Part shown: positions 8,617 through 61,587 of the stretch, one piece after another
How the letters are laid out: each line of letters starts with the position of its first letter
How positions within the stretch are numbered: position 1 is the first letter of the stretch
NCBI GenBank assembly: GCA_020848275.1
Contig: JADLAK010000024.1
Coordinates: forward strand, 29,858-93,857
Source: Planctomycetota bacterium
Lineage (GTDB): Bacteria; Planctomycetota; UBA8742; UBA2392
Direction: 5' to 3'
Length of the DNA stretch: 64,000 nucleotides
The notes under the pieces: model-generated
Told to the model about the DNA's origin: nothing
The model's database searches: none
The model's input: only the letters and a program-made list of their open reading frames with translations
Made by a program: the position numbers and the translations under genes

Positions 8617-8694
8617 ATTTTAGATTTTAGATTGAGCAACGCGATCTCTCGTAGCTCGACCCTAATCCAAAATCGCAAATCCAAAATCGGCGAT
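8617..8694. repeat. Heptad-unit inverted repeat, no ORF inside
   Basis: Left arm ATTTTAG ATTTTAG ATTGAGC; right arm CTAATCC AAAATCG CAAATCC AAAATCG. Confidence 0.85.
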
Positions 8695-12906: not shown

Positions 12907-12979
12907 GAGCCACGAATGAACACGAATTCTCACGAATTGCGTCATCAGATTCGTGCTCATTCGTGTGGATTCGTGGCTC
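12907..12979. repeat. 10-nt-unit inverted repeat (CACGAAT family)
   Basis: GAGCCACGAATGAACACGAATTCTCACGAAT...ATTCGTGCTCATTCGTGTGGATTCGTGGCTC. Confidence 0.9.
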
Positions 12980-19145: not shown

Positions 19146-19180
19146 TTAGGGATTAGGGACTAGGGATCAGGGATTAGGCT
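19146..19180. repeat. Left heptad arm flanking four-helix gene 1
   Basis: TTAGGGA TTAGGGA CTAGGGA TCAGGGA TTAGGCT. Confidence 0.9.
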
Positions 19181-19577: not shown

Positions 19578-19605
19578 CCCTGATCCCTAATCCCCAGTCC
19601 CTACC
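19578..19605. repeat. Right heptad arm flanking four-helix gene 1
   Basis: CCCTGAT CCCTAAT CCCCAGT CCCTACC, inverse of the left arm units. Confidence 0.9.
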
Positions 19606-19616
19606 CCCCGCCTCGC

Positions 19617-21125
19617 CTACGCCATGCACATCGGGCAATAAAGTTGCGGCTGGGTGGTCGCGCGGACTTCGTCGAGGCGCACCACGGGCATGTTGTGCGG
19701 CGCGTTCTTGAGCAGATCCGGGTTCTCCTTGCACTCGGCGGCGATTTTCTTCATCACGTCGATGAAGAAGTCGAGCGTCTGCTTGGATTCCGTCTCCGTG
19801 GGCTCCACCATCATCGCGCCGTGGCCGCCGGTCACGTTGGCCTGGGGGAAATAAATCGTCATCGGGTGAATGCCGTAATCGATCAGGCGCTTGGCGACGT
19901 CGATGGCGTGCAGGTGCGACTCCGCGTCCTGCTTGGCGTCGGTGAACACCACTTCGTGCGCGCAGGTCTTGTCGTTCTGGATGTGGTAATGCCCGCGCAG
20001 CTTCGCACGGATGTAGTTCGCGGCAAGCACCGCGTACTCCGCGTTGCGGCGCACGCCTTCGCGGCCAAGCTGACTCATGTAGATGTATGCCATCACGAGC
20101 GCGCCGTAGTTGCCAAAGAAGCTGCGTACTTTGCCGATGGTCTTGGGCCGCTTGAACTCGAGAGTGAACGTGCCGTCGGGTTTTTTAATCGGCCGCGGCG
20201 TGGGCAGGTAGGGCTCGAGATCTTCACGCACCGCAATGGGGCCGGCGCCGGGGCCGCCCGAACCGTGCGGCACGGAGTAAGTCTTGTGCAGGTTGAAATG
20301 CATGACGTCGACGCCGTAGTCGCCGGGGCGAACCACGCCCTGGATCGCGTTCATGTTCGCGCCGTCCATGTACAGCTTGGCGCCCGCGGCGTGCAGGATT
20401 TCGGCGATCTGGAGCATGTTCGGCTCGATCAAACCCAGCGTCGTCGGGTTGGTGATCATCATCGCCGCCGTTTGCGGCCCGACCATCGCCTTTAGTGCTT
20501 CCAGGTCACATCCACCGTCCGCATTGCTCTTCAGCGTGACGGTTTTAAAACCCGCCAGCGCCGCGGTTGCGGGGTTGGTGCCGTGGGCGCTGTCGGGAAT
20601 GATGACTTCGGTGCGGGTTTTGCCTTCGCCTTTGTCGCGGAAGAACGCCTGGATGACCATGATGCCGGTCATTTCGCCGTGCGCGCCGGCCGCGGGTTGC
20701 AGCGTGACCGCGGGCAGGCCCGAAATCTCGCGCAGGTAACCTTCGAGGTTGTACATCAACTCGATGTGGCCCTGGATGTCGGCCTCGGGCAGGTGCGGGT
20801 GAGCCTTGGTGAAGCCCGGCTTGCTGAGCAGCGTGACGTTGATTTTCGGGTTGTACTTCATCGTGCATGAACCCAGCGGATAGAAGTTCTTGTCGACGCT
20901 AAAGTTCTTGTCGGCCAGATTTTTGAAGTGGCGGACGACGTCGAGCTCGCTGAGTTCGGGCAGCTTCGCGGGTTGATTGCGCAGTTTCGCGCCCTTGAGC
21001 GCGGTCTTGACGTCGACCTTGGGCACATCGAGTTCCGGCAGCCGCAAACAGCGGCGGCCTTCGACGCTCATTTCGAACAGGAGTTGCTCGGCGGGATTCG
21101 TTACGGCGGTGGTTGCGTTAGTCAT
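19617..21125 (-). CDS. gcvPB: Glycine dehydrogenase (decarboxylating) subunit 2
   Basis: YPLGSCTMKYNPKIN, DSAHGTNPATAALAGF, HFNLHKTYSVPHGSGGPGAGPI. Confidence 0.96.
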   Translation of the reverse strand: MTNATTAVTNPAEQLLFEMSVEGRRCLRLPELDVPKVDVKTALKGAKLRNQPAKLPELSELDVVRHFKNLADKNFSVDKNFYPLGSCTMKYNPKINVTLLSKPGFTKAHPHLPEADIQGHIELMYNLEGYLREISGLPAVTLQPAAGAHGEMTGIMVIQAFFRDKGEGKTRTEVIIPDSAHGTNPATAALAGFKTVTLKSNADGGCDLEALKAMVGPQTAAMMITNPTTLGLIEPNMLQIAEILHAAGAKLYMDGANMNAIQGVVRPGDYGVDVMHFNLHKTYSVPHGSGGPGAGPIAVREDLEPYLPTPRPIKKPDGTFTLEFKRPKTIGKVRSFFGNYGALVMAYIYMSQLGREGVRRNAEYAVLAANYIRAKLRGHYHIQNDKTCAHEVVFTDAKQDAESHLHAIDVAKRLIDYGIHPMTIYFPQANVTGGHGAMMVEPTETESKQTLDFFIDVMKKIAAECKENPDLLKNAPHNMPVVRLDEVRATTQPQLYCPMCMA

Positions 21126-21138
21126 GGGTGTCTCTTTG

Positions 21139-21173
21139 GGTAGGCGTCAGGCGGCAGGCGTCAGGCAGCAGTT
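21139..21173. repeat. Left heptad arm flanking four-helix gene 2
   Basis: GGTAGGC GTCAGGC GGCAGGC GTCAGGC AGCAGTT. Confidence 0.9.
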
Positions 21174-21582
21174 AACTGCGGTCTTCTTCCGGCGGCTTGC
21201 GCTTGTTTTTCTTCATTCCTCTTTCGATCGCTTCAATCAAACCACCAAGCATCGCGCCCACTTCATCAAGCTGCTTCCAAATCGCGCGAGCGTCATCCCT
21301 AGTCACGTATCCAAGCCGAACTGCCAATTCGATCTGCGTCAGCGCTTCACCCTGCGACCCGTTGGCGATAGTCAAGCACCTGATGTAATCCGCCGGATAT
21401 CGCCTTCTCTTGTACCCCTCAGCAATGTTCGAAGGGATCGATTGCGTTGATCGCCTCAATTGACTGGTCAGGCCAAACGTCTCGAACTTCGGAAATCTCA
21501 GCGTATGCCGGTGAGTCAGTTCGACAGCGTCCATCGCCTTTTGCCAGACCTTCAGGTTGCGAAACCCAGCGTCGCTTGGCAT
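21172..21582 (-). CDS. Four-helix-bundle protein (23S rRNA intervening-sequence protein/Avd-like), second copy
   Basis: GFRNLKVWQKAMDAVELTH...QSIPSNIAEGYKRRR...LTIANGSQGEALTQIELAVRLGYV. Confidence 0.92.
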   Translation of the reverse strand: MPSDAGFRNLKVWQKAMDAVELTHRHTLRFPKFETFGLTSQLRRSTQSIPSNIAEGYKRRRYPADYIRCLTIANGSQGEALTQIELAVRLGYVTRDDARAIWKQLDEVGAMLGGLIEAIERGMKKNKRKPPEEDRS

Positions 21583-21605
21583 TGCACGCTCCGACGGATG
21601 CTTTT

Positions 21606-21640
21606 AACTGTCGCCTGCCGCCTGAAGCCTGTCGCCTTAC
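21606..21640. repeat. Right heptad arm flanking four-helix gene 2
   Basis: AACTGTC GCCTGCC GCCTGAA GCCTGTC GCCTTAC. Confidence 0.9.
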
Positions 21641-23043
21641 TTGCTTACCCCCACAGGCTTTCCAGCAAGTGCACCGGCCAATGCGGCGGCGTACTTATCA
21701 ACATCCTCCTTCGTCGTCACTTCCGTGACCGCGACGAGGTACTGGCCCTTGCGGCCCTTGCCGTATTTGTCGAGCGAGAGGCCGCCGACGATGCCCTTCT
21801 TGATCAGCTTGCGATCAAGGCCGGACGCAGCGGCAATCACGAATTCGTTGAAAACCGGCGATTCGCCGTGCAGCACTTTCACGCCTTCGACCGCCGCGAG
21901 CTTCTTCATCGCGTACTGTGTCTTGGCAATCGTGTGCTCGGCGAGTTCCATGAAGCCGTTTTTGCCCCACGCGGCCAGGTGAATCAGGGCGCGCAGCGCG
22001 CACAGCGACTGGTTGGTGCAGATGTTGCTCGTAGCCTTCTCGCGGCGGATATGCTGCTCGCGCGTCGCAAGCGCCAGCGCATAGGCGCGCTTGCCGTTGC
22101 GGTCAACGGTTTCGCTGACGATGCGGCCGGGCATCTTGCGCAGGTGTTCTTTCTTGGCGGCAAAGAAGCCAAACGCCGGGCCGCCCAGGAACTGGTGGTT
22201 GCCCAGCGGCTGGCCTTCACCGACGGCGATGTCAACGCCGGCTTCAGCGGGCGACTGCAAGTACGCAAGGCTCAGCGGTTCCGCAATCGCCTGAATAACG
22301 AGGTTCTCGTTGACCTTCGCTGCCGCGACGACGCCTTCGACGTCTTCGATCACGCCGAGGTAATTCGGTGACTGCACCGCGACGGCGCAGACGTTGCGCG
22401 TCAGCGCGGCCTTGAGCGCGTCCGCGTCAATGCGACCACTGTCTTCCGAGGCCGGGACGATCACGAGTTTGATGCCCGCGGTTTTGGCGTAGGTCTTGCA
22501 TACCGCGACGTACTCGGGGTTCACGTGGCCCGCGATCACAAACGTGCTGCGGTTTTCCTTGCGGAATTTGTCTTCGGCCACGTGCAGGCCCATCATCATG
22601 GCTTCGGCGAGCGCGCTGGCGCCGTCGTACATGCTTGCGTTGGCGACTTCGAGGCCCGTGAGCGCGCAGATTGCGCTCTGGAACTCGAAGATGAAAGTCA
22701 GCGTGCCCTGCGAACACTCGGGCTGGTAGGGCGTGTAGGCGGTGATGAATGAACCGTCATAGAGCGCGATGTGGTCCACCACCGTGCTGACGAAGTGGTT
22801 GTAGATGCCGCCGCCGCGGAAGTAGGCGTAATCGCCGGCGTTTTTTGTCTTCGCAAGCAAGCCCTCGATGTGGCGGATGACTTCGAGTTCGCCCTGGCCC
22901 TTGGGAAGCTTGAGCTTGCTGGAATCCTTCATGTCGATCCGCAGCTTCTGCGGGATGTCGTGAAAGAGTTCCTCGATCGATTTGACGCCGACAGCGGAGA
23001 GCATCTCGGCGGTTTCTTTTTGCGTATGCGGAATAAAAGGCAT
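21637..23043 (-). CDS. gcvPA: Glycine dehydrogenase (decarboxylating) subunit 1
   Basis: MPFIPHTQKETAEML start; YTPYQPECSQGTLTFIFEFQSAICALTGLEVANASMYDGASALAEA. Confidence 0.96.
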   Translation of the reverse strand: MPFIPHTQKETAEMLSAVGVKSIEELFHDIPQKLRIDMKDSSKLKLPKGQGELEVIRHIEGLLAKTKNAGDYAYFRGGGIYNHFVSTVVDHIALYDGSFITAYTPYQPECSQGTLTFIFEFQSAICALTGLEVANASMYDGASALAEAMMMGLHVAEDKFRKENRSTFVIAGHVNPEYVAVCKTYAKTAGIKLVIVPASEDSGRIDADALKAALTRNVCAVAVQSPNYLGVIEDVEGVVAAAKVNENLVIQAIAEPLSLAYLQSPAEAGVDIAVGEGQPLGNHQFLGGPAFGFFAAKKEHLRKMPGRIVSETVDRNGKRAYALALATREQHIRREKATSNICTNQSLCALRALIHLAAWGKNGFMELAEHTIAKTQYAMKKLAAVEGVKVLHGESPVFNEFVIAAASGLDRKLIKKGIVGGLSLDKYGKGRKGQYLVAVTEVTTKEDVDKYAAALAGALAGKPVGVSK

Positions 23044-23111
23044 GGGATTTGACTGCCGTATTTGCCGCGTCGGCATTCCGGGCTCAACTTTGAGTTCCGG
23101 CGTGCCAATGC

Positions 23112-23194
23112 ATGAAGAATTCAAAATTCAAAATTCAAAATTCAAAATGGACGGCCGTCCCATTTTGCATTCTTCATTTTGAATTTTGCATTGC
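23112..23194. repeat. Heptad-unit inverted repeat, no ORF inside
   Basis: ATGAAGA (ATTCAAA)x4 ATGGACG / CCATTTT GCATTCT TCATTTT GAATTTT GCATTGC, centre GGACGGCCGTCC. Confidence 0.92.
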
Positions 23195-23597: not shown

Positions 23598-23642
23598 TTC
23601 TGTTCTCGGTTGGGTGGTTGAGTGGTCGATAGCGTTGACGTG

Positions 23643-23698
23643 GTTCGTGGTTGGCAGTTCGTGGTTCGAACCACGAATCACCAACCACCATCCACGAC
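23643..23698. repeat. Heptad-unit inverted repeat, no ORF inside
   Basis: GTTCGTG GTTGGCA GTTCGTG GTTCGAA | CCACGAA TCACCAA CCACCAT CCACGAC. Confidence 0.9.
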
Positions 23699-24926: not shown

Positions 24927-25538
24927 TCAACCCCCCGTGTCGTCGTCCTTACCGAGTGAATCCAACCACCGATAAAAGTCATTTTCACCGGTTCTCGATT
25001 CGTTCTCCCTGTCGCGAGACCAGTTCAACGGGTTGTCGGCGATATACCGGTCTATTCTCGCGAATTCCTCAGACGTGCGAATGACGCGGTCATAGAAGCG
25101 CGGCTGCCACAGTTTCTGCTTTGGCCTAGTAAGGCCTTGTTCGCGTGCCTTGCGCGTCACGACGGACTTGAAGACGCCGACAACTGCCGAAAGAGAACCT
25201 GTTGCCAGCGGCGCGAACTTTCGCGGCTGATCGACGTTGGTACGGTTAGCCTTTTGCCGTTCAGGCAGGCGTACAATGGCGTGAAAATGATTGGGCATCA
25301 CGACATGACAGATTAAAGAGATGCCCGGGCGGTGAGTTGCCACGGCTGCCCATTCGCTGTCAACCAGCTTGCCCAGCGGCGACAGATCGTTTCGCGCCTC
25401 GGTAACGCGGCCGAACAAGCATCGCCGACCCAACACGCAAAGAGTGATGAAGTACGCGCGGGCCGCGGTGTAATCGAAGTACGGAAGTCGGGCTGATTCT
25501 CGTTCGGGATGACCTGAGGGTTGGAAGGGTTTGGGCAT
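24927..25538 (-). mobile_element. REP-associated tyrosine transposase (RAYT, Y1/IS200-like)
   Basis: YFITLCVLGRRCLFG, CHVVMPNHFHAIV (HUH-like motif), SVVTRKAREQG, WQPRFYDRVIRTSEEFARIDRYIADNPLNW. Confidence 0.93.
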
Positions 25539-35074: not shown

Positions 35075-35187
35075 CCACAGAGAACACGGAGCTCACAAAG
35101 AACTGCAACTGCTTCCCGCAGATGACGCAGATTGGCGCAGATAAAATCAATAGAAACTATCTGCGTTCATCTGCGTAATCTGTGGGC
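35075..35187. repeat. 9-10-nt-unit repeats: CCACAGAGAA-type array next to CGCAGAT-type inverted repeat
   Basis: CCACAGAGAACACGGAGCTCACAAAG; CCGCAGATGACGCAGATTGGCGCAGAT...ATCTGCGTTCATCTGCGTAATCTGTGGG. Confidence 0.85.
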
Positions 35188-61514: not shown

Positions 61515-61587
61515 AGCCACGAATGGACACGAATTCCCACTAATGGCCCGTCTGTAATTCGTGAAAATTCGTGAGGATTCGTGGCTT
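61515..61587. repeat. 10-nt-unit inverted repeat (CACGAAT family)
   Basis: TAGCCACGAATGGACACGAATTCCCACTAAT...AATTCGTGAAAATTCGTGAGGATTCGTGGCTTA. Confidence 0.9.

Follow-up and report, generated by a model that had tools for sequence, protein, structure and literature searches.

Genes of the S23/IVP family are known from the intervening sequences (IVS) that interrupt 23S rRNA in Coxiella and Leptospira. The Coxiella IVS, 428 nt long, encodes S23p between terminal inverted repeats of 28 bp and is cleaved by RNase III; what S23/IVP intervening sequences do and where they come from has been described as unclear (PMC4990558). Short tandem repeats of seven nucleotides form another set of described systems. 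The heptads GGGAATC of Xanthomonas and GGGGAYT of Nostoc come in arrays of preferably about four 7-nt units, in convergent pairs and near stop codons, and the four-unit preference has been put down to G-quadruplex (G4) formation, in a text that does not mention IVP genes (Rehm et al., PMC4692102). The H4 and I-class repeats of Geobacter and the TAACTGA repeats of Beggiatoaceae are also tandem 7- or 8-nt repeats, in Geobacter mostly as opposite-strand pairs; in the accessible parts of these reports they are taken as regulator sites, and no IVP gene is reported alongside (PMC2700814, PMC4679880). A link between IVP genes and heptad arms was not found in the open-licence literature, where absence proves little.

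The data presented here tie the S23/IVP sequences to the heptads known from Xanthomonas, Nostoc and other bacteria, for which there is no agreed origin. In a window of 64,000 nt from a Planctomycetota bacterium (the whole stretch of DNA that was analyzed), an IVP gene separates gcvPA from gcvPB and has inverted heptad arms on either side (Table 1). Read from 21139, the left arm is GGTAGGC, GTCAGGC, GGCAGGC, GTCAGGC, AGCAGTT; read from 21606, the right arm is AACTGTC, GCCTGCC, GCCTGAA, GCCTGTC, GCCTTAC. The repeat finder reports the inverted pair 21142-21164 / 21608-21630 with 91% complementarity, TRF finds period 7 in both arms, and together with the PF05635 match these agree with the arrangement that the initial annotation had described. 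The element resembles the 23S rRNA IVS in having an S23/IVP gene of similar length, a similar size and complementary ends (PMC4990558). It differs from it in residing in a protein operon and not in rRNA, in that its arms are tandem heptads, and in that copies lacking the gene occur dispersed through the genome.

Table 1. Features of the two IVP elements, their gcv neighbors and gene-less hairpins (window coordinates)
Feature	Position	Strand	Basis or remark
Gene-less heptad hairpin, weak	8617..8688	.	unit ATTTTAG; loose threshold
Left heptad arm, second IVP element	19146..19178	+	unit AGGGATT; repeat finder, TRF
Second IVP gene, 133 aa	19167..19568	-	41% identical to the gcvPA|gcvPB IVP
Inverted right heptad arm, second IVP element	19578..19608	-	repeat finder, TRF
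gcvPB	19617-21125	-	
Outer (left) heptad arm, gcvPA|gcvPB IVP element	21139..21175	+	unit AGGCGNC; inspection, repeat finder, TRF
IVP gene, four-helix bundle protein, 136 aa	21172..21582	-	PF05635, TIGR02436, AlphaFold model vs 2gsc/2rld
Inverted right heptad arm, gcvPA|gcvPB IVP element	21604..21642	-	outer end abuts gcvPA stop codon; repeat finder, TRF
gcvPA	21637-23124	-	
Gene-less heptad hairpin, gcvPA/gcvH gap	23118..23192	.	unit AATTCAA, 12-nt loop; repeat finder, TRF
Gene-less heptad palindrome, gcvH/gcvT gap	23639..23697	.	unit CGTGGTT; repeat finder, TRF

The protein encoded between the arms belongs to the IVP family (PF05635, E=4.4e-33), with scores above the curated cut-offs of both PF05635 (114.1 vs 33.8 bits) and TIGR02436 (110.3 vs 24 bits). 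Its AlphaFold model (pLDDT 95) matches 2gsc, which is XCC0516 of Xanthomonas campestris, with a TM score of 0.93-0.95, and 2rld with 0.79-0.86, depending on the target length; both structures contain five chains. The model also shares its four-helix fold with the Avd structure 4dwl (TM about 0.7). IVP and Avd are cyclic pentamers, and the window protein is probably a ring of five subunits, each an Avd-like four-helix bundle. Like in fold, it is nevertheless unlike the accessory protein Avd of diversity-generating retroelements in that it scores well under the cut-offs of the Avd models (bAvd 21.1 vs 40, NF033474 33.5 vs 80), and we reject that assignment. A profile search of the element's ORF found no transposase and the IVP family as its sole domain match, and we know of no catalytic domain in IVP.

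About 2 kb away, a sister element has the same architecture and the same 7-nt unit length with another unit sequence, AGGGATT vs AGGCGNC. The two IVP proteins are diverged paralogues, as the initial annotation had it, and it was also right that the arms are closer within an element (identity 0.82 and 0.89) than across the two (0.56-0.61). We attribute the difference in unit to the proteins being only 41% identical. The genome has four PF05635 loci, all four with heptad arms (AGGCGNC, AGGGATT, AGGTTYT, CGTGTYA). The 1.49 of its 4.41 Mb that were examined, in stretches, contain 103 period-7 arrays and 40 inverted pairs, vs no heptad inverted pair in two dinucleotide shuffles, and thus inverted heptad arrays are far above chance. 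A single ancestral arm consensus, which would have made these ordinary diverged copies, was not found; the genome holds many unlike units. In the fourth copy (at the C77 site, L003:1471-1881) the IVP gene has a frameshift towards its 3′ end and the arms are well preserved. The AGGTTYT element (L081:9996-10480) has an orthologous site in another genome (G009, L253:4995-5333) with octad arms, GAGAGATG, and a protein 55% identical; either a replacement insertion or a switch in unit length could account for the difference.

We then ask how general this arrangement is. Two sources, genomes from the bacterium's own family and phylum and a scan through GTDB genomes, supplied IVP genes of Planctomycetes, Chloroflexi, Bacteroidetes, Cyanobacteria, Acidobacteria, Proteobacteria, Clostridia, CPR and others, a sample skewed towards IVPs that resemble the query. 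Inverted arms above the score threshold are present at 149 of the 180 IVP genes with sufficient flank (83%) vs 1 of 170 random positions, and arm autocorrelation peaks at shift 7 (0.68) and shift 14 (0.675), with controls at 0.26. The period is 7 in 124 of the 180, 8 in 13, 9 in one and 6 in one, and none of the 170 control positions has periodic arms. In 93% of the elements the G-rich arm comes first, and some arms extend into long arrays of the kind that slippage produces (L116, L169). The 31 IVP genes at which clear arms are absent, distant subfamilies included (L103, L107, L109, L110), count against the explanation that we favor below.

Across this sample the architecture is conserved and the arm sequence is not, as the initial annotation had proposed. 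Mean arm identity is 0.52 between elements vs 0.87 within them, a within value inflated by the arms having been found by their mutual similarity. The annotation's further claim, that the unit sequence is locus-specific, has to be replaced. For pairs of elements at different sites with IVP identity of at least 60%, arm similarity is 0.77, compared with 0.56 for all different-site pairs, and the highest of 10,000 resampled means is 0.62; pairs with IVP identity below 60% show no excess. Sharing extends across phyla (L143/L167, Atribacterota and Omnitrophota; L129/L165, Chitinophaga and Betaproteobacteria), and AGGCG-type units recur in one of this genome's gene-less hairpins (L006) and next to related IVPs elsewhere in sister genomes (L244, L262, L282). 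Since IVPs at least 60% identical share arms at different sites, the unit goes with the lineage of the IVP, and a strictly locus-specific unit is rejected.

The annotation had also held that the ends are unlike those of a normal element with terminal inverted repeats, and that this suggests local templated copying. Lineage-specific ends are normal for mobile elements; what is unusual is that these ends are tandem arrays, with a near-constant copy number and units that change together. At one orthologous site (C77) the arms read CGTGTTA, CGTGTTT, CGTGGTT and GTGTCTG in different genomes, a drift which shows concerted change of all units in both arms. Some homogenizing process is still required: it may be slippage, correction of one arm by the other, or selection exerted by the protein. 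Templated copying is not needed to explain how the two window elements differ, and it stays a possible part of that process. Pairing arm units in order as opposed to shuffled order gives a weak test, with a mean z of 1.1 and only 11% of elements at or below 0.05, where the ends had been set on the observed alignment.

The number of units per arm was taken as the number of copies, one directly after another, of its best conserved 4-base core, a procedure whose thresholds limit the lower end of the count and not the upper. Among 248 period-7 IVP arms, 90 have four cores and 103 have five (78% with four or five), arms with more than five are uncommon, and five is also the mode in period-8 IVP arms and in gene-less heptad hairpins. 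We infer that five cores are matched to five subunits. Unit length fails as a marker of IVP clades: the 13 octads require 12 changes on the IVP tree, and as switching between 7 and 8 is thus about as frequent as possible, spacing is not rigidly fixed by protein clade, which weighs against the explanation favored below.

Another small gene in the same genomes, GxxExxY (PDDEXK_3, PF13366/TIGR04256), lies inside octad or decad hairpins. Its arms are periodic in 18 of 35 genes, always at 8, 9 or 10 nt and never at 7; of the remainder, ten have arms of mixed spacing and seven have none. The periodic GxxExxY arms have three cores, of CACAGAG or CACGAAG type, and their spacing differs from that of IVP arms (p=3e-15). 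Examples are L047:16384-16857, L261:8073-8535, L265:360-783, L228:6125-7050, L277:6884-7305 and L304-L333. In the accessible parts of the open-licence literature we found no tie between GxxExxY and repeats. That two gene families follow two rules of spacing and number is the strongest argument for the protein, and not slippage alone, setting the repeat.

In three pairs of elements at different sites (L260/L282, L152/L169, L143/L167) DNA homology stops at the outer arm ends (for L260/L282, homology covers 1446-1921 and the arms 1446-1918). Like an IS element or MITE, these are homologous units bounded by terminal inverted repeats; unlike one, the window element carries no transposase. The element edge lies a median of 3-4 nt from the adjacent stop codon, and within 15 nt in 72-74% of cases; the IVP gene is codirectional with both neighbors in 49 cases and opposed to both in 10, counts which rest on simple longest-ORF calls.

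The gcvPA|gcvPB junction shows several states. It has no insert in two genomes of species of one family (in G002 the genes abut, and in G013), a gene-less hairpin in five (heptad in G005 and G009, 10-mer in G004 and G008, 8-mer in G006), and an IVP element with differing arms in the window's own genome and in G001, G007, G010, G011, G012 and G014. Within one genus, gcvPA ends about ten codons earlier in filled than in empty genomes, with its stop at the element edge. Empty and filled junctions were compared for a target-site duplication and are too diverged, the 3′ end of gcvPA being different. The IVPs at this junction are mostly nearest relatives of one another, at 50-60% identity, and for that reason old insertion and vertical descent explain much there; the likely history adds loss or replacement.

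Gene-less versions of the arms are frequent. The examined 1.49 Mb contain 45 short-loop heptad hairpins, with arms of 31 nt and mostly with the G-rich arm first. Of the genome's own gene-less hairpins, 60% match arms of family IVPs at 0.8 or above, vs 28% for other IVP arms (p=0.003). In 160 kb from two genomes of the phylum that lack IVP we found no convincing heptad hairpin and one doubtful GC-rich pair; the density in this genome (~30 per Mb) predicts about five, in what is a small sample. We read gene-less heptad hairpins as non-autonomous derivatives, or relics, of IVP elements. They are like REP/RAYT systems and MITEs in being short palindromes spread over a genome and presumably mobilized in trans by a protein that only a few copies encode, and unlike them in that the IVP element has no HUH/Y1 transposase and its ends are tandem arrays.

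The comparison with the Xanthomonas and Nostoc heptads can be taken further. The heptads here share their tandem 7-nt units, the preference for about four of them, the proximity to stop codons and the frequent arrangement as convergent pairs. A Luteimonas IVP (L140) has arms of GGGAATC, the Xanthomonas unit, and IVPs of Nostoc and Anabaena have arms of GGGAATA, GGGTGTA or TGGGGAG, so that Luteimonas and Nostocaceae IVPs bear arms of the described type. In 120 genomes of the L140 family, IVP is present in 28 of 36 with GGGAATC arrays (at least 5 matches) and in 27 of 84 others (odds ratio 7.4, p=6e-6, with kinship among the genomes ignored). Eight genomes rich in such arrays, in which IVP was undetected, count against our favored explanation. 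What differs here is that there are many units per genome, mostly not G4-capable and tied to IVP genes.

That there is an IVS-like family in which gene and tandem-repeat arms form a unit, boundaries included, is well supported. We consider it rather likely, in addition, that the element is an IVS-like mobile element whose IVP pentamer reads its own repeated arms, with the hairpins as non-autonomous forms; we infer the binding of protein to repeat, the mobilization of hairpins in trans and the chemistry of transfer. The data themselves show the anatomy and how general it is, the regular copy number and spacing, the boundaries, presence and absence at one site, and the link between unit sequence and IVP lineage. 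A single IVP gene occupies the loop between two inverted arms, and either arm is a tandem array of about five cores spaced 7 (sometimes 8) nt, with a fixed polarity, G-rich first. Gene and arms would travel jointly, as ~450-500 bp, settling just past stop codons and usually leaving the gene oriented along the operon, and the element at 21139-21642 would be such an insertion between gcvPA and gcvPB. Most likely, the pentamer would bind its own arms with each subunit on one core, and bound IVP would mark the element, together with gene-less hairpins of matching unit, so that host or borrowed enzymes copy them, which we propose because IVP has no known catalytic domain.

Three other explanations have to be weighed. 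A purely mutational origin, in which slippage makes and homogenizes heptads, quasipalindrome correction or template switching aligns the arms, and IVP is a bystander or occasional passenger, would account for the majority of heptad hairpins having no gene, for units changing in concert within one element, and for the slippage-like arrays in some arms; heptads are moreover the commonest long simple-repeat class in many genomes, according to work cited in PMC4679880. We judge it unlikely, as slippage alone predicts neither the 83% association with one gene family, nor the cap near five cores, nor the fixed polarity, nor the sharing of units across phyla by IVP lineage, nor the other spacing and number of GxxExxY. 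It is quite unlikely that the arms are instead the stem of an operon transcript excised by RNase III, where selection would act on the RNA stem and excision would confer tolerance. The Coxiella IVS resembles IVP elements in size and layout (PMC4990558) and IVP genes are codirectional within operons, but a plain stem has no need of tandem units, and in protein operons excision would split the message. Furthermore, arm mismatches are not biased towards G-U pairs on the sense RNA strand (123 sense vs 144 antisense, p=0.22), so we reject the idea that selection maintains a stem in the sense RNA and lean to recognition of DNA or of a single-stranded repeat. An IVS-like RNA element can coexist with the mobile element read by its own pentamer.

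The arms as G4-forming regulatory repeats, the proposal made for the Xanthomonas and Nostoc heptads, which form G4 in vitro, favor arrays of four units and adjoin stop codons (PMC4692102), would fit the G-rich-first order. As the general explanation this is highly improbable and we reject it: four GGG tracts per arm are found in 20 of 137 IVP elements (15%) and 4 of 47 of the genome's own gene-less hairpins, and AATTCAA-like units hold the same copy number with no G tract. For GGG units it could still hold.

IVP elements share one design across bacterial phyla, look like a hitherto unrecognized family of small mobile elements, and may explain the puzzling heptanucleotide repeats of Xanthomonas and Nostoc. 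They offer a testable rule, that the gene family sets repeat spacing and number. Should five repeats indeed be read by a pentamer, the result would be a simple code for recognizing nucleic acids that exists in many natural specificities; the ring protein TRAP follows a comparable logic. More tentatively, and with doubts that outweigh our confidence, we suggest a new class of bacterial mobile element. Its ends would be defined by a small oligomeric protein, rather than a transposase, that reads a tandem repeat subunit by subunit (IVP about five cores at 7-8 nt, GxxExxY three at 8-10 nt); protein and unit would change together by lineage, and much of the heptanucleotide repeat content dispersed in bacterial genomes would stem from the non-autonomous hairpins.

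Other small repeats were observed in the same genome. Hairpins with a 6-nt period (CAGGTT type, G-rich arm first) number 13 in 1.49 Mb and include L030, L036, L061, L066, L069, L075 and L083; no gene was found with them. Downstream of gcvT, an ORF at 24927-25538 is related to Y1/IS200-like transposases (22.5 vs a 23-bit Pfam cut-off) and is possibly RAYT-like. Gene-less hairpins with a 10-nt period, of CACGAATNNN and GCAGATNNNN types, form a class separate from the heptads, with about 10 in 1.49 Mb and, in the window, copies at 12911-12975, 61518-61583 and 35123-35176.
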